From: Bacteroidia bacterium
Lineage (GTDB): Bacteria; Bacteroidota; Bacteroidia; Chitinophagales; Saprospiraceae
Reading direction: 5' to 3'
NCBI GenBank assembly: GCA_030429045.1
Contig: JAUIEA010000005.1
Coordinates: 1-64,000 of the forward strand
Length of the DNA stretch: 64,000 nt
The position numbers and the translations under genes were made by a program. A model generated the notes under the pieces. The model was not told the DNA's origin. It saw only the letters and a program-made list of their open reading frames with translations, and ran no database searches. Positions 26,971 to 40,197 of the stretch are shown here, one piece after another. Numbering within the stretch: position 1 is the stretch's first letter; each line of letters starts with the position of its first letter.

Positions 26971-28218
26971 TCAAACGGAAGCTTGCATCAACCAGGCACA
27001 GAGAAGGGCGCCATACGTGCCAACGGCATATCCCAAGACAGCTAGCAGGACACCTACAGGTGCCAGGCTGGGGCTGAAGGCTGAAGCGACCACCGGTGCA
27101 GATGCCGCACCCCCGATATTGGCCTGGCTTCCGACGGCCAGGAAGAAAAAGGGCGCCTTGATCCATTTGGCAACCAGGATCATGATCCCCGCATGGATCA
27201 ACATCCAGATCAGTCCTATGGCAAACAGACCGAGGTGGCTGAACACCTCTTGCAAATTCATCTTCATGCCAATGGTAGCGACCAGGACATAGATAAACAG
27301 CGATCCCCACTGGCTGGCACCGACACCTTCCAGCTGTCGTGCGCGGGTAAACGAAAGGGTAAGCCCAAACGTCGTGGCAATGACCACCAACCAGAAAAAA
27401 TTGGACAAAAGGGAGTGCATGCCCATTTCTTTCAGGCTGGTTTCATAGTGGCCGAGGGCAGGGGTAATGACATCCGCTCCAAAATGGGCAAGAGCGGTGC
27501 CACCAAAACCGACAGCTGCAATCAGGAAGAGGCTGTATGTAGACGGGATCTTGGCAATACTGGACCGATAGTCTTCCACCCGTTTTTTCAGATCCTCAAT
27601 CGCTGATGAATCGGCTTTCAGCCATTTGTCGATCCGATTGTTGATGTTGGTTCCGTACAACAGGAATCCCATCCAGATATTGGCGACGATGATATCCACC
27701 ACCAGCATGCTGCCGAAGAGGTTGTCACCCACTTCAAACACTTCCTTCATGGCGGTCTGGTTGGCGCCACCCCCGATCCAGCTTCCGGCAACGGTGCTCA
27801 ATCCTTTCCACAGTTCATCGGGAGGGACACTTAACAGCTCGGGGAAAAATACAGTGACGGTCAACAGGGCAACGGGCCCACCCAGTACGACACCCAGCGT
27901 GCCCGTCAGGAACATGATCAGGGCTTTCGGACCGAGATTGAGGATGGCCTTGAAGTCGATACTCAGACAGAGCAGGATCAGCGAGGCGGGTAGCAGATAG
28001 CGGGATGCCACGAAATACAGGTGCGACTCCTCGCCCGAAACCCATCCCAGGGGCCAGTTGAACAGAGCTGGGACAAAATAACAGAGGAGCAGGGCTGGAA
28101 TGTAGGTGTAGAATTTTTTCCAGAACGGCTTGATGCTTCGGGACGTCCACATGATCAAGGCCAGGATGGTCATGAGAAGTCCCAACACTACTGCATCATT
28201 CGTCAAAATCGGGTCCAT
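26971..28218 (-). CDS. DUF819 family membrane protein
   Basis: Multi-TM; GSWIGGGANQTAMKEVFEVGDNLFGSMLVVDIIVANIWMG. Start reset to MDPILTNDAVVLGLL (28218) because the track's 5' extension runs into rnpB. Confidence 0.85.
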   Translation of the reverse strand: MDPILTNDAVVLGLLMTILALIMWTSRSIKPFWKKFYTYIPALLLCYFVPALFNWPLGWVSGEESHLYFVASRYLLPASLILLCLSIDFKAILNLGPKALIMFLTGTLGVVLGGPVALLTVTVFFPELLSVPPDELWKGLSTVAGSWIGGGANQTAMKEVFEVGDNLFGSMLVVDIIVANIWMGFLLYGTNINNRIDKWLKADSSAIEDLKKRVEDYRSSIAKIPSTYSLFLIAAVGFGGTALAHFGADVITPALGHYETSLKEMGMHSLLSNFFWLVVIATTFGLTLSFTRARQLEGVGASQWGSLFIYVLVATIGMKMNLQEVFSHLGLFAIGLIWMLIHAGIMILVAKWIKAPFFFLAVGSQANIGGAASAPVVASAFSPSLAPVGVLLAVLGYAVGTYGALLCAWLMQASV

Positions 28219-28345
28219 ATGCTCTCGTTTTGCACGCAAAATAAGCGGAACATCTGCATTCACGGCAGTTTCTCGTCCTTCCGGGCCAATTGACTGGTGG
28301 ATTGAGTAAAAAATAGCAGAAGGCGTACTGCACGGTCGAAGGATG

Positions 28346-28353
28346 TATCTTTG
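28346..28353 (+). promoter_or_regulatory. -7 promoter element TATCTTTG of rnpB
   Basis: TAnnTTTG immediately upstream of the inferred RNase P RNA 5' end. Confidence 0.7.
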
Positions 28354-28357
28354 AAGG

Positions 28358-28756
28358 GTCGCCGGCCACTCTGTCGCTTCGAATTTCAGATTCGGGGAGG
28401 AAAGTCCGGACAACGCAGAGCACCACACCAGCTAACTGCTGGGGCTCTGACGCGAAGGCGTCAGGGTACAGATCGGGTCACAGAAACATACCGCCGATCC
28501 CGTCTTCGGACGGGAGGTAAGGGTGAAATCGTGTGGTAAGAGCGCACGCATCCCCGGAGTAATCCAGGGATGGGATAAACCTTGTGGGTTGAAATGCCAT
28601 GTACATCCGGGTCTTCGGACAGGTCGGCTCGGCCTGATCCACCTCGGTGGAACCCGGAGGGGTAGGCAGCTTCATTCCGCCAGTGATGGCGGAAGCAGAT
28701 AAATGACAGAGTTTCGCCTTCGGGTGAAAACAGAATCCGGCTTATCGGCCGGCGAC
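28358..28756 (+). ncRNA. rnpB: RNase P RNA (bacterial class A)
   Basis: Hallmarks GAGGAAAGTCCGGACA and ACAGAATCCGGCTTAT; terminal P1 pairing GTCGCCGGC/GCCGGCGAC. Confidence 0.95.
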
Positions 28757-28765
28757 ACTTTTACA

Positions 28766-30085: not shown

Positions 30086-33000
30086 TTATTTTAGCAAAAC
30101 CAATTTCTCTACTGTGCTTTCGGCATCCTGGCCGGCTCGAAGACCATCCAGGGCCTTAATGTGGATCTTGTATAGATACAGACCATTCGGCAGTTCGCCG
30201 CCGTAATCGTTCTTTCCATCCCAGCCCATGGAGCTCACCCGGTTGCTTTGTCCGGTCAATACCTCACGGATGGTTTTCACTGCTCTTCCGGTCATATCAA
30301 AGATCTGGATATCGACCTGGAGAGATTGCCCGGCCAGATTGTGTTCAAACTGGAAGTTGGTCCAGGTGCCGAACGGATTAGGATAATTCAAAACATGTGC
30401 CAAGGCGCCATCGTCGAGGTTTCCAACCACAAACTCCGTTGATCCTTCTCCCGGATTGTTGTGGATATCCCAGGCCCTCACCCGGATGGAATAGCGACCG
30501 GGTTCCAGCTTTTGCAAGGGATAGCGAATGATCGCTCGCCTGAAGTCATCCTTGACAGGCTCGAAGAAGTCGTTCAGTGCGTACGTATTCTTCGTGTCCT
30601 CATTCAATACACCGATCGGGTCATGTCCGATGCTGTTCCCAGAGATATTGAACCCCGAATCATCATACAATTCGGCATACAGGATGGGCCGATCGCCGGT
30701 AAGGCCCCCGAATGACCAGTCCGAGTCATTCATGAACACATTGACAATGGGGGGAAGGTTGTCTTCCGGAGCAGTTTCATCCACGCCGAAGATCACAAAG
30801 TCTTCAAAGTTGCCGGTCGCGTCACGATCCACGCCGTCAAAGGCGTAATAGGACAACTTGCCATTTCCAAATTCAAATATGATGTCCTTCGGGAGGGTCA
30901 TCGTCACCGTAAAGGTGCCATTGGCTACGGAAGCAGCACCCTCAAAGAGAATGTTTTTCTGGAGCCTGAACTCCTTTACATAGCTGTCGGGGTCATTGGC
31001 CAGGGTTTTGGCGGTAATGGCCTTATCGAACAGGGTCGGATAGATCGTGCCATTGAAGTCTTTCACCAATTGCCCGGTGCCGGTTTCGATACGCCCTTCG
31101 ATGGTCACCGTTTGCAGGGCTTTCAGCGTATCGAATGGCGCCGTTGGATTGGGGGTGATGTCAATGCCATTGAGCTTGGTCGTGACCACACGAAGCCGGG
31201 GATAGGCCAGGTGTTGGGCCGGATCTCCGAGCATCATGAATTTGCGATCATTCTGGCCGTTGCCGCGTTTGTTCTTCGCCCGGCGAAGTGCTTCGCCCAT
31301 ACTTTTATCGTAGGGTTCCCCATCATTGAAGAGTTCCTTCAGGGCATTTTCAGCCAGATCCTTGTTCAAACCGGCATAGACGGGTCGAACCGTGCTGAAC
31401 AGGGCTATGCTACCGCCTTTCGGGTTGAGCAGCACCAGTTCACCGGCGCTTTTATTTCCAGGATTGTCAAAACCGGCAAACGTACAGGTGGCTGTGATGA
31501 AGAGCGGCAAACGGTTGCTATTCGACCAGTTCTGGATGTCTGTCAGATGAAGTACGCGTTCCTGGGTCCAGCCGGAGGTGCCACCATGGCCGAGATAATT
31601 GACCACGAGCGCCCCTTTGAACATATTGTTGTTCAGGGCTTTATTAGCATCCGGATAGCGTTCACCGCCCGGTGTAGAGATCTGCTTGAATGCGTCGATA
31701 TAGATCTTGTCCTGGTTGAGCTCAGGCCTCCAGTTGCGGACCAGCTCAGAAAGTTCGTCTGCATCATTGAGGTGATAGTTGTCATCCTCATCATCCGCCA
31801 TGTTGACAAAACGGAGGCGCCAGTCGTCAAAGAAAGCGGGGTCAGAATCGTAAGCGATGATCTTGTTGACTACGCCGGTTGCTTCCTCCACGGTTTCGAC
31901 AGGCAGGCGGCCAACGGCAATGTCGATCGTATGTCCGGTCGCTGATCCACCTTCCTGATCCTCCAAGATGCCAAAGTGGTCATCGGTGGGAAAGGCTCTG
32001 ACGGGATCCAGGGATTCATCTGTTTCAAACACAGGCACAAAGTCGCCGGGGTTGCTGAGATTCTTGATGTTCCGATAGTCAAAGGAGGCATCTCCAAATA
32101 GGAGCAGATGGCCAAAGAGGCTGTCGCGTTGCCAGATCATCCGCGCGAGGTCGCGGATCGCATAGGGATCTTTAGCGCCTGATGAATATTCATTGTATAC
32201 CTGATCGACGGATGCCATGGCCACCTTCAGTCCGGAATGGGATTGGCGGTGTTCCGCCAGCTGCTCAGCAGCGGCTGTAAAATCCGGGTGGTAGACGATC
32301 AACAGGTCGGCTTCCAGAATGCCGTGCAGATTCTGGTTGGGGATCTTACCAATGGCCTGTGGTGCCTGGAAAGAACCATTTGTGCGGAAGGCTATAAACG
32401 TATGGAGGCTCTCAGGTTCGTAAGTAAAGGTGGCCTGGTTACCGTCGCTCTGGTATGCCTGGATGACCGGGGACAGGGGATCGCGGATGTCCCAGATCAT
32501 GGTTTGCGCATCGACCTGGTTAAGGGTCAGGGTGGCTTTGTCTTGTCCGACCGTGCGTAGATCGGCAAAGCGAAGGGGTTTGCTTCCGAGGATCAGCGCT
32601 CTTCGCATGCGCAGCTCGATATAGTCCACCCATCCGGCAGCGCCACTTCCCAGGGCGCTGTAGCTGACCTTGACGGAGAAGTTGTCTCCAGTGGGGAAAT
32701 AGGTCTCCTGAATATTCCCCAGGCGGGCATAGACCGCTTCGACATTCCCCAGATTGGTACTTCCCAGCGTGTTGGACTTCAACGCTGTAGTACCCAGGGT
32801 GAGGGTAAAGGTATTGGAGGCATCACTGCGCGATGCAAATCCGCCGGAGACGCCCACCGGTTCGCCGGGAACAAGGTTGGTCAGGTCGAACCGGGAACTG
32901 TAATTGATGGTCGTCAGGGCAGATGACATGCGATCGCCAAACCAGCGCATGCCGGAGCCCTGCGTGCCAGAGGCACCATCCAGCAGGTTGTAGAGTTCGT

Positions 33001-33697
33001 CTTCGATGCGCTGGACATCATCATAGGATGTGGTGGTATATCCTCCCGGAGCAAGGTTGTCCCTGGAGGTTACCCGCAAGCCATCAAAGGCATCCACCTT
33101 GAGAAAGTAGTAGCTCCGGGTATCATACAGGTGGGTGATCTGCGTGAGTTTTCCGCTGACCTCGTCATAGACCTCCTGTATCGGGCCAGCAGCATAGAAC
33201 AGGATATAATCTGATGGATGAAATACACCATCCTCCTCTCCGGCGACATATATGGCGTTCTCTACCAGGTCATCCGGCCGGGCCAGAGCATTCGCCCGGG
33301 GAAGCATGGCTCCGCCATTGCCGTACAGGTGAAGGTCTCTGGGATCGATCTGGTCGATTGGTAACTTCAAAGTGTTTTTCAGATAGTCATAGGACATCTT
33401 GTAGATCCCCTCCTGCGATACGGCGATCTTGTAGATATCCCCACCGGCCAGAACGGATTCTTCCGTGCCTCCGCGCAAGGAAGCATGTGGGCCGTTGCCC
33501 GGGGGTTGAAACCCTGGGGTCTCTAGCGGAAATTCTGCATCTTCCTCGGCAAGGGCTGGTGCGGTCTGTACGAAATGCGTATTTTGCATGACTGCTTCAG
33601 CCACCTGAAGAGGTTGTGGTTGTGACCACAGGGGCAGCGTAAGGAATGTTAGGATCCCGAATCCCGCGGATCTCAAGGTTAAAACGGCCATGTGCAT
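30086..33697 (-). CDS. porU: Type IX secretion system sortase PorU (C25 gingipain-like)
   Basis: VNYLGHGGTSGW (His) and FITATCTFAGFDN (Cys); C-terminal NYPNPFGTWTNFQF...LPNGLYLYKI CTD. Start at MHMAVLTLRSAG preferred. Confidence 0.95.
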   Translation of the reverse strand: MHMAVLTLRSAGFGILTFLTLPLWSQPQPLQVAEAVMQNTHFVQTAPALAEEDAEFPLETPGFQPPGNGPHASLRGGTEESVLAGGDIYKIAVSQEGIYKMSYDYLKNTLKLPIDQIDPRDLHLYGNGGAMLPRANALARPDDLVENAIYVAGEEDGVFHPSDYILFYAAGPIQEVYDEVSGKLTQITHLYDTRSYYFLKVDAFDGLRVTSRDNLAPGGYTTTSYDDVQRIEDELYNLLDGASGTQGSGMRWFGDRMSSALTTINYSSRFDLTNLVPGEPVGVSGGFASRSDASNTFTLTLGTTALKSNTLGSTNLGNVEAVYARLGNIQETYFPTGDNFSVKVSYSALGSGAAGWVDYIELRMRRALILGSKPLRFADLRTVGQDKATLTLNQVDAQTMIWDIRDPLSPVIQAYQSDGNQATFTYEPESLHTFIAFRTNGSFQAPQAIGKIPNQNLHGILEADLLIVYHPDFTAAAEQLAEHRQSHSGLKVAMASVDQVYNEYSSGAKDPYAIRDLARMIWQRDSLFGHLLLFGDASFDYRNIKNLSNPGDFVPVFETDESLDPVRAFPTDDHFGILEDQEGGSATGHTIDIAVGRLPVETVEEATGVVNKIIAYDSDPAFFDDWRLRFVNMADDEDDNYHLNDADELSELVRNWRPELNQDKIYIDAFKQISTPGGERYPDANKALNNNMFKGALVVNYLGHGGTSGWTQERVLHLTDIQNWSNSNRLPLFITATCTFAGFDNPGNKSAGELVLLNPKGGSIALFSTVRPVYAGLNKDLAENALKELFNDGEPYDKSMGEALRRAKNKRGNGQNDRKFMMLGDPAQHLAYPRLRVVTTKLNGIDITPNPTAPFDTLKALQTVTIEGRIETGTGQLVKDFNGTIYPTLFDKAITAKTLANDPDSYVKEFRLQKNILFEGAASVANGTFTVTMTLPKDIIFEFGNGKLSYYAFDGVDRDATGNFEDFVIFGVDETAPEDNLPPIVNVFMNDSDWSFGGLTGDRPILYAELYDDSGFNISGNSIGHDPIGVLNEDTKNTYALNDFFEPVKDDFRRAIIRYPLQKLEPGRYSIRVRAWDIHNNPGEGSTEFVVGNLDDGALAHVLNYPNPFGTWTNFQFEHNLAGQSLQVDIQIFDMTGRAVKTIREVLTGQSNRVSSMGWDGKNDYGGELPNGLYLYKIHIKALDGLRAGQDAESTVEKLVLLK

Positions 33698-33768
33698 AAG
33701 GTTTGCTGTTACAGAAACGTTACCAGTATACTTGTATTGCCAAAGGGAAGTAATCTTAAAAGTACGAT

Positions 33769-34806
33769 ATGGTTGAACGTCCACGGGCTATCTTCTTGAA
33801 TCTTTTTCTGACCATCGCACTGTTGATCACAATGGTGTGTAACACTTTTGGGCAGGATCCGGTTTTCTCACAATATTATGCGGCTCCCCTGCAGACCAAT
33901 CCGGCCTTTGCCGGGAACACCAACCTGCCCCGGATCGGCTTGCACTATCGCAACCAATGGCCGAACCTGCCCAATGCATACGCCACTTATATGGTGACGT
34001 ACGATCAGTTTGTGCCAATGCTCAACAGTGGTTTCGGCTTGACAGCCATGGGCGATGTTGCGGGAGACGGGATCTACAAGACCGTCGGCATGAGTGGCCT
34101 GTACAGCTATCGGCTCGACTTTGGTGGGGATGTCTATGCCAAAATGGGCATTGAAGGGACTTACCTGCAGCGGTCACTGGATTGGGACCGACTGGTCTTT
34201 TACGATCAGCTGGATCCGGTCAATGGACCGAATGATCCATCCGGCAATCCCAACCCCAGCGGGGAAGGCCGTCCGGAAGATCTGGTGCAGGGCAATCTGG
34301 ATGTAAGTGCAGGAATTCTGGTCTACAGCCGGATGTTCTATGCCGGCTTCAGTATGAATCACCTGACCACCCCGGATGAAAGCTTCCTCCAGATCAATGA
34401 CAACCTCTATTTCGGGTTGCCGATGCGGTTGTCCTTCATGGGAGGGGCACAGTTTAACATAGACAATAACCTGGATGGCCCTACGTTCCTATCTCCGAAC
34501 ATATTGTATACCAGACAGGGCGGGTTTTCCCAGTTGAATGCCGGCCTGTACGGGCAGTTAGGCCTGGTTTTTGCCGGAGCGTGGTACCGTCACGCAGGGA
34601 GTAATCCGGATGCGGTCATCGGCCTGGTCGGCATGCAAAAGGGGATTTTGAAGGTGGGGTATTCCTATGATCTCACGATATCCGGTGCGTCCGGATTTGG
34701 TGGCGCTCATGAAATCTCCCTGATCCTGAATTTTGACAACAGTGCCCAGGCAGAAGCCAATCGTCGCCGCGGTCGTTATAGTGACTGTCTAAAGATGTTT
34801 CGATAG
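33769..34806 (+). CDS. PorP/SprF family type IX secretion membrane protein
   Basis: FGQDPVFSQYYAAPLQTNPAFAGNTNLPRIGLHYRNQWPNLPNAYATYMVTYDQF. Confidence 0.95.
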   Translation: MVERPRAIFLNLFLTIALLITMVCNTFGQDPVFSQYYAAPLQTNPAFAGNTNLPRIGLHYRNQWPNLPNAYATYMVTYDQFVPMLNSGFGLTAMGDVAGDGIYKTVGMSGLYSYRLDFGGDVYAKMGIEGTYLQRSLDWDRLVFYDQLDPVNGPNDPSGNPNPSGEGRPEDLVQGNLDVSAGILVYSRMFYAGFSMNHLTTPDESFLQINDNLYFGLPMRLSFMGGAQFNIDNNLDGPTFLSPNILYTRQGGFSQLNAGLYGQLGLVFAGAWYRHAGSNPDAVIGLVGMQKGILKVGYSYDLTISGASGFGGAHEISLILNFDNSAQAEANRRRGRYSDCLKMFR

Positions 34807-34862: not shown

Positions 34863-36374
34863 ATGATCACGATGAACTCTTGGAAAAGCATTCTATTTAC
34901 AGTAGCCGTAAGCGGTCTCCTCTTCGGCAGTTGTGGTAAGGGCGATCGCTCTTCCTCCACTGGATGGAAATACAACGACGCCGAATGGGGCGGATTCGAA
35001 AAGCTCGATTATGAAGGTCAGGTTACCGGACCCAACCTCGTCCTGGTACAAGGTGGAACCTTTACCATGGGACTCACAGAGCAAGATGTGGCAATGGAGT
35101 GGAATGCGATTCCACGCCGTGTGACCGTTTCTTCCTTCTACATGGATGAAACTGAAGTCTCCAACATCGATTATCGCGAATATCTCTTCTGGTTGACCAA
35201 CACTTTTGGTGAGTCTTATCCGGAGGTATACAGCAACGCACTGCCCGATACCCTGGTATGGCGTGAAGAGCTTTCCTTCAACGAACCATTCGTAGAAACC
35301 TATTTCCGTCACCCCGCTTATGACAACTATCCGGTTGTCGGCGTGAACTGGATCCAGGCCAATAATTACTGCCAGTGGCGGACTGACCGTGTGAACGAGA
35401 TGATTCTCATCGAACGCGGCATCCTGAACCCTAATCCGGAGCAGCGGGATGAAGACAACTTCAACACTGAAGCCTATCTGGCCGGTCAGTATGAAGGTTC
35501 TGTTCGCAAGAATCTGGAGGATATCCGTTCAGGCGGCGAACGTAAAGTTCGCTTCGAAGATGGCATCATGCTGCCAGCTTACCGCCTGCCTACAGAAGCG
35601 GAGTGGGAATATGCGGCGCTTGCCCTGATCGGCAACCAGGCTACGGATAATGAAGAACTGATCACTGATCGCAGACTCTATCCATGGAACGATAATACCG
35701 TTCGTTTCCAGAAGCGCAACAAGTATCAGGGTGAAATCCTGGCCAACTTCAAGCGTGGCAGTGGAGACTATATGGGTATGGCAGGTAAGCTGAATGACCA
35801 GGCCCACATTCCAGCGGATGTCCGTTCCTTCATGCCAAACGACTTCGGTCTGTACAACATGGCGGGTAACGTTTCTGAGTGGACCATGGATGTCTATCGC
35901 GCCCTGACCCCGGAGACCCTTCGCGATGTAGACAACCACGATCTGAACCCTTTCCGTGGAAACAAGTTTATGACCAAGGTGAAGGATGAGGACAACAAGC
36001 CGGTGGAGAAAGACTCATTGGGCCGCCTGCAGTATCGCATGGTGGAAGATGATGAGGTTGCAACCCGCGATAATTATAAGCGAGGCGATGTGCTCAACTA
36101 TATGGACGGTGACAAAGAATCTGCCGCGACATATGAATATGGCAAGTCCACCTTGATCAGTGACAAGGCCCGTGTGATCAAGGGCGGATCCTGGATGGAC
36201 CGCGCCTGGTATCTCTCTCCTGGTGCCCGTCGTTTCAAAGAAGAAGACAAGGCTGATCGCAGTCTCGGTTTCCGTTGTGCCATGACCCGTACGGGTGGTC
36301 CTGAAGGAAACGAGGACAGTGCCGGTAACAAGTTCAAAGTGAAAAAGAACAAGGTCAAGCGTCGTTACAAATAA
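34863..36374 (+). CDS. gldJ: Gliding motility lipoprotein GldJ (SUMF1/FGE fold)
   Basis: Lipobox GLLFGSC; STGWKYNDAEWGGFE; VQGGTFTMG...YRLPTEAEWEYAA...GLYNMAGNVSEWTMDVY...GFRCAMT. Next to porU/porV and murF, as in other Bacteroidota. Confidence 0.92.
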   Translation: MITMNSWKSILFTVAVSGLLFGSCGKGDRSSSTGWKYNDAEWGGFEKLDYEGQVTGPNLVLVQGGTFTMGLTEQDVAMEWNAIPRRVTVSSFYMDETEVSNIDYREYLFWLTNTFGESYPEVYSNALPDTLVWREELSFNEPFVETYFRHPAYDNYPVVGVNWIQANNYCQWRTDRVNEMILIERGILNPNPEQRDEDNFNTEAYLAGQYEGSVRKNLEDIRSGGERKVRFEDGIMLPAYRLPTEAEWEYAALALIGNQATDNEELITDRRLYPWNDNTVRFQKRNKYQGEILANFKRGSGDYMGMAGKLNDQAHIPADVRSFMPNDFGLYNMAGNVSEWTMDVYRALTPETLRDVDNHDLNPFRGNKFMTKVKDEDNKPVEKDSLGRLQYRMVEDDEVATRDNYKRGDVLNYMDGDKESAATYEYGKSTLISDKARVIKGGSWMDRAWYLSPGARRFKEEDKADRSLGFRCAMTRTGGPEGNEDSAGNKFKVKKNKVKRRYK

Positions 36375-36440: not shown

Positions 36441-37763
36441 ATGAATATCTCCGCCCTTCATACCCTGTTCCTGGACTGCAATCGGGCGGTCATCGACAGT
36501 CGTCAGTGCCAACAGGGTGACCTGTTTTTTGCATTGCAGGGGCAGGTGGATGGCAACCGCTTTGCTGCAGATGCCCTGGCCCGAGGGGCGAGCTATGCGA
36601 TCGTGGATGATCAGAAATGGGTGGCCAATGAGCAAACCCTTCTCGTTCCGGATGCCCTGAAAGCCCTTCAACTCCTGGCCCAGTATCACCGCCGGTATTT
36701 GGGCATACCCATCCTGGCCCTCACCGGATCCAACGGCAAGACAACCACAAAGGAACTGATGGCACGAGTCCTTTCCCAAACCTACCGGGTATATGCCACA
36801 CCGGGAAATTTCAACAACCATATTGGCGTGCCCCTTACTCTGCTGGGTATACCGGAGGATTCTGAGATGGTGATCGTTGAAATGGGTGCCAATGCACAGG
36901 GTGAAATAGCAGATCTGTGCGCCATTGCCGAACCCGATTTCGGAATGATCACCAATATTGGAAAGGCTCATCTGGAAGGGTTTGGCGGGTTGGAAGGGGT
37001 CCGGAAAGGGAAAAGTGAACTGTACAGGTATCTGCAGGACCACAAGGGATTGATCTTCTATAGTGTTGATGAACCTCACCTGGGTGATCTGGTCGGTCGC
37101 TATCAACCCTGTGTCACCTATTCGGCACAGGATGTAAACGCCGATATGCATTACGTCCTGGATCGGGAAGCGCCTGAGATCCAGCTTCACTACATGGATG
37201 GATCCGGCCGAAGGATCGATGTTCAGTCGCCTCTATATGGTGTTCATAATTTCAGGAATATCATGGCGGCGATCACCATCGGTCGGCACTTTAGTGTCCC
37301 GGATGCCCATATCTGTGAGGCGATCGGCCGGTATCGTCCGGATAATAACCGATCCCAGCGGATCCTCGCCGGGACCAACACCTGGGTGATGGATGCCTAT
37401 AATGCCAACCCGACCAGTATGGCGATGGCCTTGCGCAGTCTGGACCAGTCTGAGGGCTCAGGCAAGATGGCCATCCTGGGGGATATGCTGGAACTGGGTG
37501 AGGACACGGGGAAAGAACATCAAGCTATCATCGATCTTCTGGTCGGGATGACCCATGTAGAACCGGTGTTGGTGGGTCCGGCTTTTTCCAAAACCGATCA
37601 TCCGGCCCACTGGCCGGCATTGCAGTCTGCCCAGGAGCTTGATGAGTGGTTGGCCGCTCGCCAGCCGGAACAGATGACCATTCTGGTGAAGGGCTCACGA
37701 GGTGTGGCGCTTGAAAAGGGTGTAGATCGCTGGATTAACGATAGCGGAATTGCGCCTGCATGA
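36441..37763 (+). CDS. murF: UDP-N-acetylmuramoyl-tripeptide--D-alanyl-D-alanine ligase
   Basis: IDSRQCQQGDLFFALQGQVDGNRFAADAL; LTGSNGKTTTKELMARVL; VMDAYNANPTSMAMALRSL. Confidence 0.97.
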   Translation: MNISALHTLFLDCNRAVIDSRQCQQGDLFFALQGQVDGNRFAADALARGASYAIVDDQKWVANEQTLLVPDALKALQLLAQYHRRYLGIPILALTGSNGKTTTKELMARVLSQTYRVYATPGNFNNHIGVPLTLLGIPEDSEMVIVEMGANAQGEIADLCAIAEPDFGMITNIGKAHLEGFGGLEGVRKGKSELYRYLQDHKGLIFYSVDEPHLGDLVGRYQPCVTYSAQDVNADMHYVLDREAPEIQLHYMDGSGRRIDVQSPLYGVHNFRNIMAAITIGRHFSVPDAHICEAIGRYRPDNNRSQRILAGTNTWVMDAYNANPTSMAMALRSLDQSEGSGKMAILGDMLELGEDTGKEHQAIIDLLVGMTHVEPVLVGPAFSKTDHPAHWPALQSAQELDEWLAARQPEQMTILVKGSRGVALEKGVDRWINDSGIAPA

Positions 37764-38835
37764 TTCTGTCGGGCAACTCATTTCGGCAGGCCTCCTGGTA
37801 GTCGCTGTAGGAACAGGGAACCAGGCGATGCCGTTCATGGCCCGCTTCTTCACGGACCGGAACCTGTAACCACCATCTGCCTGTTCGGGAACTCTTCCAG
37901 AAAACAAGCTGATCATGGAAGTGATCATGCTGCACATGGAATTCGATCAGACCGTCCATCGAAACCGGAAAATCACCCTGCCGCTGGGAGACCGCTTCCA
38001 GGAAATACCATAATATCTGCCCTGCCATCCGTGCGGTGATGTGTTTTCGATCCCGACTGGGGGCCCAGTCTCCTATACTGAGAGAGCTCAGTTTTTCGCT
38101 TAAGCCGGCATACCGGACGATCTGGCATATCTCCATCCCATCCAGGCCGTTGGGCCCTGGATGGCCAGCTGCAGGCGCATAGGCGGAAGCCAGGGCAGAC
38201 AGGTTGATGCTGAGCATATCGGCATCCCGGAGTATGGGTTCCATCTTGATCGGATCTTCCTTGACCATGCCCAACCCGTGCAACTCAAAGTGTTCTTCCT
38301 CGATGAGGTGGCGGATCACCGCCGGATCTGCATGATGTCGCTGATAGGCCAGCAAGCTGAGATGGAACAAGTGGTGTTCGCCGGGTTTCAGCATCCGGTT
38401 GAGGAGGGGCAACTTTTTATTATCCGGCTTCAGAAGGTATTGGGGACGGTCCTGTACCAGAGAAGCACTCACACCCTTTACCTTGTCTCCGTAGGCCTGG
38501 TATTGATAGAAGGACAGATCCGGGTCGCTTCCGATCAGGATGACGACTTTTCGTCCATCGATCAACTCTTTCAATACCTGAATGGCAAAGGAGGGTTCGG
38601 CCTTTCGCAGATTGCCCAGATCGACTATAGGCATGTTGCCAAAACTCCAGCCCATTTCATACAATTCTTTGCGGACGGCATCAGCGGCCTTGTCGTTATA
38701 GCCGAGGAGGGTGACAGCCTCTTCCGGGATTTCGTTCATTTCCGGAAAGAACGGGAGGATCCGGTTGCCCAGCTGATAAGAGGACCAGCGTTTCTTGTTC
38801 GGATGCTCGTGGGGTTTGAGCCAGTGTGCAAGCAT
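37735..38835 (-). CDS. Arginase/formimidoylglutamase-fold protein with degenerate metal motifs
   Basis: Ureohydrolase-like architecture (NGLDGMEICQIVRYAGLSEKLSSLSIGDWAPSRD), but GGxH, DAHxD and SxDxD positions read GSDPD, LVQDRPQ and SINLS. Start reset to MLAHWLKPHEHP (38835). Confidence 0.8.
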   Translation of the reverse strand: MLAHWLKPHEHPNKKRWSSYQLGNRILPFFPEMNEIPEEAVTLLGYNDKAADAVRKELYEMGWSFGNMPIVDLGNLRKAEPSFAIQVLKELIDGRKVVILIGSDPDLSFYQYQAYGDKVKGVSASLVQDRPQYLLKPDNKKLPLLNRMLKPGEHHLFHLSLLAYQRHHADPAVIRHLIEEEHFELHGLGMVKEDPIKMEPILRDADMLSINLSALASAYAPAAGHPGPNGLDGMEICQIVRYAGLSEKLSSLSIGDWAPSRDRKHITARMAGQILWYFLEAVSQRQGDFPVSMDGLIEFHVQHDHFHDQLVFWKSSRTGRWWLQVPVREEAGHERHRLVPCSYSDYQEACRNELPDRIMQAQFRYR

Positions 38836-38847: not shown

Positions 38848-38936
38848 GGGAATCACAAGCAGGAGAAGAGCCGTTCACATTTGATATCGCCGGGAAAATA
38901 GCCTGCTGTTTTGATGGTGACCACAAGGCAAAGGCC

Positions 38937-38944
38937 TACCTTTG
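38937..38944 (+). promoter_or_regulatory. -7 promoter element TACCTTTG
   Basis: 20 nt upstream of ATG 38965, inside the track's 5' extension. Confidence 0.5.
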
Positions 38945-38964
38945 GCGCACGAAAATCAGTAGAA

Positions 38965-40197
38965 ATGGATCAGCGATTAGAGACCTATAAGTCAGATGCC
39001 CCGGAAATTGTGTTTGAGTGGCACGACAGTGAGACCGAAGCCCGCGGGTGGGTGGTGATCAATAGCTTGCGAGGCGGGGCAGCGGGTGGAGGAACCCGGA
39101 TGCGCCAGGGTCTGACCCGTGATGAGGTGGTTTCATTGGCCAAGGTCATGGAGATCAAATTCTCCGTGAGTGGTCCTGCGATCGGTGGTGCCAAATCAGG
39201 CATTGATTTCAACCCCAATGATCCGCGTCGTGATGGCGTGCTTCGCCGCTGGTACAAGGCCGTTTTCCCCTTGTTGAAAAACTACTACGGAACGGGAGGG
39301 GATCTCAATGTGGATGAAATGAAGGATGTCATTCCGATCACGGAGGACCTGGGCCTGTGGCATCCACAGGAAGGGGTCGTGAACGGGCACTTTAAGAGTG
39401 CCAAGGGAGATCGGATCCAGATCATCGGGCAATTGAGATATGGCTGTGCCAAAATGGTAGAAGACCCGGCCTATGCCCCTCCGGGACGGCATAAGCATGC
39501 AGTTGCTGACCTGATCACCGGTTATGGTGTCAGTGAGTCCATCCGGCATTATTACGACCTGTTCCGGCATGAGACCTTGCAGGGAAAACGGGTCATTATC
39601 CAGGGGTGGGGGAATGTGGCAGCTGCGGCAGGATATTACCTGTCGGCCCACGGGGCGTTGATCACCGGTATCATCGATCTGGGTGGGGTGGTGCTCGCTC
39701 CGGATGGTCTGGATTACCACCAGGTGGAGGATATCTTCCTCAGCCGGAAAGGAAATAAACTGGATCATGCCATGGCCATACCCTATGAAGAGGGAAAGGA
39801 CAGGGTCTGGGAGATGCCTGCTGATATCTTTATGCCCGGAGCCGCGAGTAAGATTGTTTCACCCGAGCAGATCCGGGGTCTGATGGATCGCGGGCTGGAG
39901 GTCATCAGCTGCGGGGCCAATGTCCCGTTTACGGATGATGGCGTCTTTTTTGGCCCCACTGCGATAGAAGTCGACAAACGGATCAGTCTCATTCCGGATT
40001 TTATCGCGAATTGTGGCATGGCACGGGTATTTGCCTATCTCATGCAGCCGGATATTCAAGTGACGGATCACGGTATTTTTGAGGATGTGTCTGCGACGAT
40101 TCGCAAGGCCTTGCAGGACGTCAAAGCGGAATCAGCAGATCTGACCCGAATTTCCACCCGGGCCACTGAAATTGCCATGAAAAAGCTGGGGTTCTAG
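38965..40197 (+). CDS. Glu/Leu/Phe/Val dehydrogenase family protein
   Basis: LRGGAAGGGTRMRQGLTRDEVVSLAKVMEIKFSVSGPAIGGAKSGIDFNPNDPRR; KRVIIQGWGNVAAAAGYYL Rossmann. Confidence 0.93.
   Translation: MDQRLETYKSDAPEIVFEWHDSETEARGWVVINSLRGGAAGGGTRMRQGLTRDEVVSLAKVMEIKFSVSGPAIGGAKSGIDFNPNDPRRDGVLRRWYKAVFPLLKNYYGTGGDLNVDEMKDVIPITEDLGLWHPQEGVVNGHFKSAKGDRIQIIGQLRYGCAKMVEDPAYAPPGRHKHAVADLITGYGVSESIRHYYDLFRHETLQGKRVIIQGWGNVAAAAGYYLSAHGALITGIIDLGGVVLAPDGLDYHQVEDIFLSRKGNKLDHAMAIPYEEGKDRVWEMPADIFMPGAASKIVSPEQIRGLMDRGLEVISCGANVPFTDDGVFFGPTAIEVDKRISLIPDFIANCGMARVFAYLMQPDIQVTDHGIFEDVSATIRKALQDVKAESADLTRISTRATEIAMKKLGF

Follow-up and report, generated by a model that had tools for sequence, protein, structure and literature searches.

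Metal-free proteins of the arginase family are known, and few of them have an assigned function. An arginase-like protein of Trypanosoma brucei reportedly has no binuclear Mn cluster and is said to be of unknown function. By this description it resembles the protein analysed here, denoted ARGL, in belonging to the arginase family and in having no metal centre; however, the trypanosomal protein is eukaryotic, whereas the context of type IX secretion system (T9SS) genes and a C-terminal domain are specific to ARGL. Another such protein is MetCb of metformin hydrolase, a non-catalytic subunit that has lost its metal ligands and functions as a protein binder (PMC11271267). MetCb shares with ARGL both the family and the ligand loss but is paired with an adjacent active subunit, MetCa; no active partner is encoded next to ARGL in the window, and some genomes with ARGL have no other detected ureohydrolase, which places ARGL outside the MetCb type. 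With MetCb and the T. brucei protein as examples, this kind of protein is already known. The best match to the core of ARGL, by profile over most of the length, is formimidoylglutamase HutG (TIGR01227; structures 3m1r and 1xfk), from which the ARGL analysed here differs in having no catalytic metal ligands and in carrying the extra C-terminal domain.

A different set of described proteins is relevant through gene order. GldJ, GldK and GldN have been proposed to form one moving track (PMC12635249), and the genes for GldJ and GldK-N adjoin ARGL in two arrangements. The Gld proteins are exported lipoproteins or envelope proteins, whereas no signal sequence is evident for ARGL when its orthologs are aligned, for which reason it is probably cytosolic. 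The literature searched contains no description of the ARGL family or of such a gene beside gldJ or gldK, and no reported T9SS role or mutant phenotype was found for it there; this is weak evidence that a family so widespread in the class, with such a domain and context, is new. The gene was recognized in a 64,000-nucleotide stretch of a Saprospiraceae genome (Bacteroidia bacterium, assembly GCA_030429045.1, contig JAUIEA010000005.1), here called the window.

The ARGL gene and its metal-ligand positions

The gene and its altered active-site motifs are as follows, with residues numbered according to the 373-amino-acid form that begins at a GTG codon and ligands numbered as in human arginase.

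37735..38835, minus strand: ARGL, pseudo-ureohydrolase coding sequence including the stop codon (open reading frame, start conserved in relatives, PF00491 match, orthologs)
38518..38532, minus strand: GSDPD, residues 109-113, replacing GGxH (H101 to Pro)
38440..38460, minus strand: LVQDRPQ, residues 133-139, replacing DxHxD (D124, H126 and D128 to Gln, Arg and Gln)
38197..38211, minus strand: SINLS, residues 216-220, replacing SxDxD (D232 and D234 to Asn and Ser)

The alternative GTG start extends the reading frame to 38856; the eighth codon of this form is the ATG at 38835 (Met8), which we take to be the conserved start because congeneric orthologs begin there with MLAHWL. The reading frame, the ATG start and the three replaced motifs were correctly given in the first-pass annotation.

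By sequence, ARGL belongs to the arginase/ureohydrolase superfamily. The window protein matches PF00491 with 33.1 bits (cut-off 22), over residues 212-285 only, and its score of 47.5 bits against TIGR01227 is far below the equivalog cut-off of 229, too low for assignment to HutG. A profile built from 40 ARGL orthologs finds its best match in the Bacillus formimidoylglutamase 3m1r (E = 7.5e-21, positions 45-301) and also matches solved formimidoylglutamases and agmatinases across most of the core. The single-sequence AlphaFold model of full-length ARGL has a pLDDT of 35.6 and is unusable for the fold or the metal site. The stretch NGLDGMEICQIVRYAG...SRD, which had been described as fold-specific, is indeed present but is largely a signature of the ARGL family and not of arginases generally.

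The ligand positions were read from an alignment with canonical ureohydrolases of the phylum, all 21 of which keep the ligand at five positions, and 17 of which keep it at H101. In the window ARGL none of the six Mn ligands is left, the residues at H101, D124, H126, D128, D232 and D234 being P, Q, R, Q, N and S; together with the PF00491 match this bears out the original identification of an arginase-superfamily pseudoenzyme, and metal-dependent hydrolysis by a window-type ARGL is very unlikely. None of the 96 aligned orthologs possesses all six ligands. The complete loss seen in the window, however, is not general: most orthologs outside Saprospiraceae have three or four of the six left, those of the Mn-A site (H101 is retained in 44%, D124 in 91%, H126 in 7%, D128 in 84%, D232 in 89% and D234 in 5%), and what is mostly gone there is only the Mn-B pair, H126 and D234, lost in 93-95%. 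Retention among the Saprospiraceae orthologs is 8%, 46%, 3%, 8%, 33% and 10% at the same six positions. Under the simplest reading of these alignments, the Mn-B ligands would have been lost first, class-wide, and the Mn-A ligands would have eroded later in Saprospiraceae, with the three-motif loss in the window as the probable endpoint of a graded series.

The least eroded ortholog observed (locus L103, 6233-7378) has five of the six ligands, with H, D, H, D, D and S at these positions. A second strongly eroded lineage is family f24 (loci L076, L077 and L078), in which the orthologs retain GG and nearly all ligands are gone.

Such a distribution of ligands might also be expected if many ARGL proteins were still enzymes, either mononuclear (Mn-A only) or metal-free, with changed chemistry, the lineage of the window being a degenerate branch. 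The retention of D124, D128 and D232, and partly of H101, outside Saprospiraceae is consistent with this possibility, as is the location in the core of five invariant, family-specific residues (R62, D79, Q172, E206 and R210). Against it, Gln is as frequent as His at the H101 position in these orthologs, and the window gene is under strong selection despite having no ligand left. On balance we consider this explanation unlikely; a reduced-metal or altered enzyme in members outside Saprospiraceae is possible.

Gene neighbourhood in the window and across the class

The window genes that bear on the context of ARGL are these.

30086..33784, minus strand: peptidase C25 protein (PF01364), PorU-like by domain and context only
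33769..34806, plus strand: PorP/SprF-family gene (PF11751)
34863..36374, plus strand: gldJ-like T9SS/gliding lipoprotein gene (best matches TIGR03524 and TIGR03530)
36441..37763, plus strand: murF (TIGR01143, 352.5 bits, over the cut-off), convergent with ARGL, 29-base overlap of the ends
38911..40197, plus strand: Glu/Leu/Phe/Val-type dehydrogenase gene (PF00208), divergent from ARGL

The gldJ-like product scores just under the respective cut-offs (411 bits against 458 for TIGR03524 and 367.7 against 382.9 for TIGR03530). The window also encodes a class A RNase P RNA (RF00010, 231.7 bits; 28358-28760, plus strand), the first bases of which overlap a predicted reading frame on the opposite strand (26971-28428).

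The order C25 (PorU-like)-porP/sprF-like-gldJ-murF, with ARGL convergent to murF, is present at most of the examined Saprospiraceae loci, and the porU-porP-gldJ-murF-ARGL arrangement is also found in five other families of the order to which the window belongs. Since ARGL and murF are convergent in the window, gldJ and ARGL cannot share an operon there. A different arrangement is seen in other lineages, where ARGL is flanked directly by topA on one side and gldK-gldL-gldM-gldN on the other, all on one strand and sometimes with a porP-like gene before gldK; this flavobacteria-type neighbour is thus gldK, a paralog of gldJ, and not gldJ itself. The topA-ARGL-gldK-gldL-gldM-gldN order is conserved at seven loci (L089, L090, L096-L098, L118 and L119), in one of which, L089, 6 bases separate topA and ARGL. 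Because GldJ, GldK and GldN are proposed to be parts of a single track, the two arrangements are better evidence than one would be.

Among the 104 class genomes for which both genes are listed, ARGL is located within 10 kb of gldM in 58, at distances of 3.3-6.6 kb, against about one case expected by chance according to a rough estimate from genome sizes; in many families, ARGL is distant from T9SS genes. The co-occurrence of ARGL and GldM is also strong (186 genomes with both, 5 with neither, 3 with GldM only and 4 with ARGL only; p = 3e-6, a value that ignores kinship and reflects few losses, with some absences in incomplete genomes). Three of the four genomes with ARGL and no GldM are incomplete. 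Conversely, ARGL is missing from three T9SS-bearing genomes (G446, G493 and G501), and two more (G247 and G307) have the T9SS and no ARGL by a weaker single-sequence search.

The linkage of ARGL to T9SS genes is real, although in the flavobacterial arrangement it may partly be inherited gene order. Of the linkage to T9SS and cell-wall genes that had been noted for the window, the T9SS part holds and extends more widely than was seen at first, whereas the cell-wall part is weak: murF is convergent and is adjacent only in the order of the window, the flavobacteria-type neighbours being topA and gldKLMN. A structural or regulatory function had been suggested on this basis; such a role in the T9SS is a reading of genome context, and the T9SS-bearing genomes that have no ARGL weigh against it.

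The other neighbour in the window suggests a different role. ARGL could regulate nitrogen or amino-acid metabolism without catalysis, by sensing a ligand of the ureohydrolase type, such as an amidine or an amino acid, and acting on the adjacent Glu/Leu-type dehydrogenase, in which case the T9SS neighbourhood would be incidental; we regard this combination as rather improbable. ARGL and the dehydrogenase gene are in divergent orientation not only in the window but at several loci in several families of the order, and at some loci (L079, L080, L105 and L112) the two adjoin even where gldJ-murF is not alongside. At the flavobacteria-type loci, however, ARGL was not seen to have such a dehydrogenase gene as a neighbour, and the binding of a ligand by ARGL is putative. 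The window dehydrogenase itself is far below the cut-off of every NCBIfam equivalog, its best score being 83.5 bits where 536 is required.

Distribution, selection and the C-terminal domain

Orthologs of ARGL were identified in 60 of 61 relatives; in the remaining one (G023, locus L068) the match is a canonical paralog and was left out of the count. The nearest ortholog, from a Saprospiraceae MAG, is 88-89% identical. The ARGL profile matches 190 of the 198 class genomes, a few of the weakest matches possibly being paralogs, and among the matches listed 150 score at least about 365 bits. In the phylum sample outside the class there are just weak matches, like those that canonical arginase-family proteins give, and the viral and plasmid collections contain no relative of ARGL. 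In a tree computed without the ligand columns, a single branch (SH-aLRT 99) splits 49 orthologs from 21 canonical paralogs; ARGL is a single clade apart from the canonical ureohydrolases of the phylum.

Many genomes that encode ARGL, including that of the window, contain another arginase-family gene, and ARGL could be a pseudoenzyme subunit that regulates an active ureohydrolase, for which MetCb with its partner MetCa in metformin hydrolase is a precedent (PMC11271267). Nevertheless, such an arrangement is most improbable: no ureohydrolase gene is adjacent to ARGL in the window, and six near-complete genomes (G008, G010, G016, G029, G030 and G035) encode ARGL and have no other PF00491 match, which makes an obligate active partner unlikely.

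ARGL is under purifying selection, as had been proposed in preference to decay. Comparison with the 88-89% identical ortholog gives an uncorrected pN of 0.069 and pS of 0.686, and a dN/dS of about 0.04 with dS near saturation. The ligand positions differ even between congeneric orthologs, as they might in a pseudogene on its way out, but with an intact reading frame in nearly all genomes, purifying selection that is strong and a C-terminal domain that is near-invariant within the genus, that explanation is refuted as far as sequence can refute it and retains next to no probability.

The C-terminal part of the protein is a separate feature.

37738..37971, minus strand: C-terminal domain, residues 296-373 (about 78 residues), only in the ARGL family

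Each of four comparisons within the genus shows stronger constraint on the last 83 residues than on the core (pN ratio about 1.6 to 6), so that the most constrained part in the genus of the window is a domain not mentioned in the first-pass annotation; family-wide the core and the C-terminal part are on average about equally conserved. Many of the near-invariant residues of the family lie in the C-terminal part (F319, S322, R327, W328, W329, C348, D352 and Y353). In 297 genomes of the phylum the domain occurs at 63 places, all of which, where compared, are ARGL genes, and it is absent from the phylum genomes outside the class. Neither a supported match in Pfam nor a relative in the PDB was found for it. 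The AlphaFold model of the domain (pLDDT 77.7, pTM 0.68) comprises four strands and two helices, and a fold search with this model yields nothing at E < 0.001. Judging by these searches, the domain appears to be undescribed and is found only in ARGL proteins.

The top rows of the fold search, PC4 and Pur-alpha, are not significant (E 0.6-3, TM about 0.2), and a relation to the WGR domain (PF05406) was rejected with an hhalign probability of 0.1%. In six genomes of family f24, no C-terminal domain was detected.

A proposed role for ARGL

Given that a metal-dependent hydrolase is very unlikely and an obligate active partner unlikely, an adaptor or regulator is favoured. ARGL would have evolved from a formimidoylglutamase/agmatinase-like ancestor through loss of the Mn-B ligands, followed in the lineage of the window by loss of the remaining ones. 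The formerly catalytic core would have been kept to serve as a scaffold, which, as in related proteins, is probably oligomeric, and the new conserved C-terminal domain would bind a partner, so that ARGL might act through the binding of a protein or a small ligand. Its most probable task would be to help make or control the GldJ/GldK-N track of the T9SS/gliding system. We thus tentatively favour the interpretation of ARGL as a class-wide, probably cytosolic pseudo-ureohydrolase that serves as a non-catalytic adaptor or regulator, most probably for this track. The pseudoenzyme part of this interpretation is well supported, and it is only the genome context that points to the T9SS.

ARGL is an old, class-wide family in which the active site has been lost by degrees, with a domain that appears to be undescribed and a recurrent location beside the moving-track genes. 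Automatic annotation of these genes as formimidoylglutamase would mislead metabolic models. With some doubt, ARGL could be an unrecognized cytosolic T9SS/gliding factor, near-universal in the class, with an assisting or regulatory part in how the GldJ/GldK-N track is produced; if so, it would be a missing accessory of the T9SS/gliding machine.
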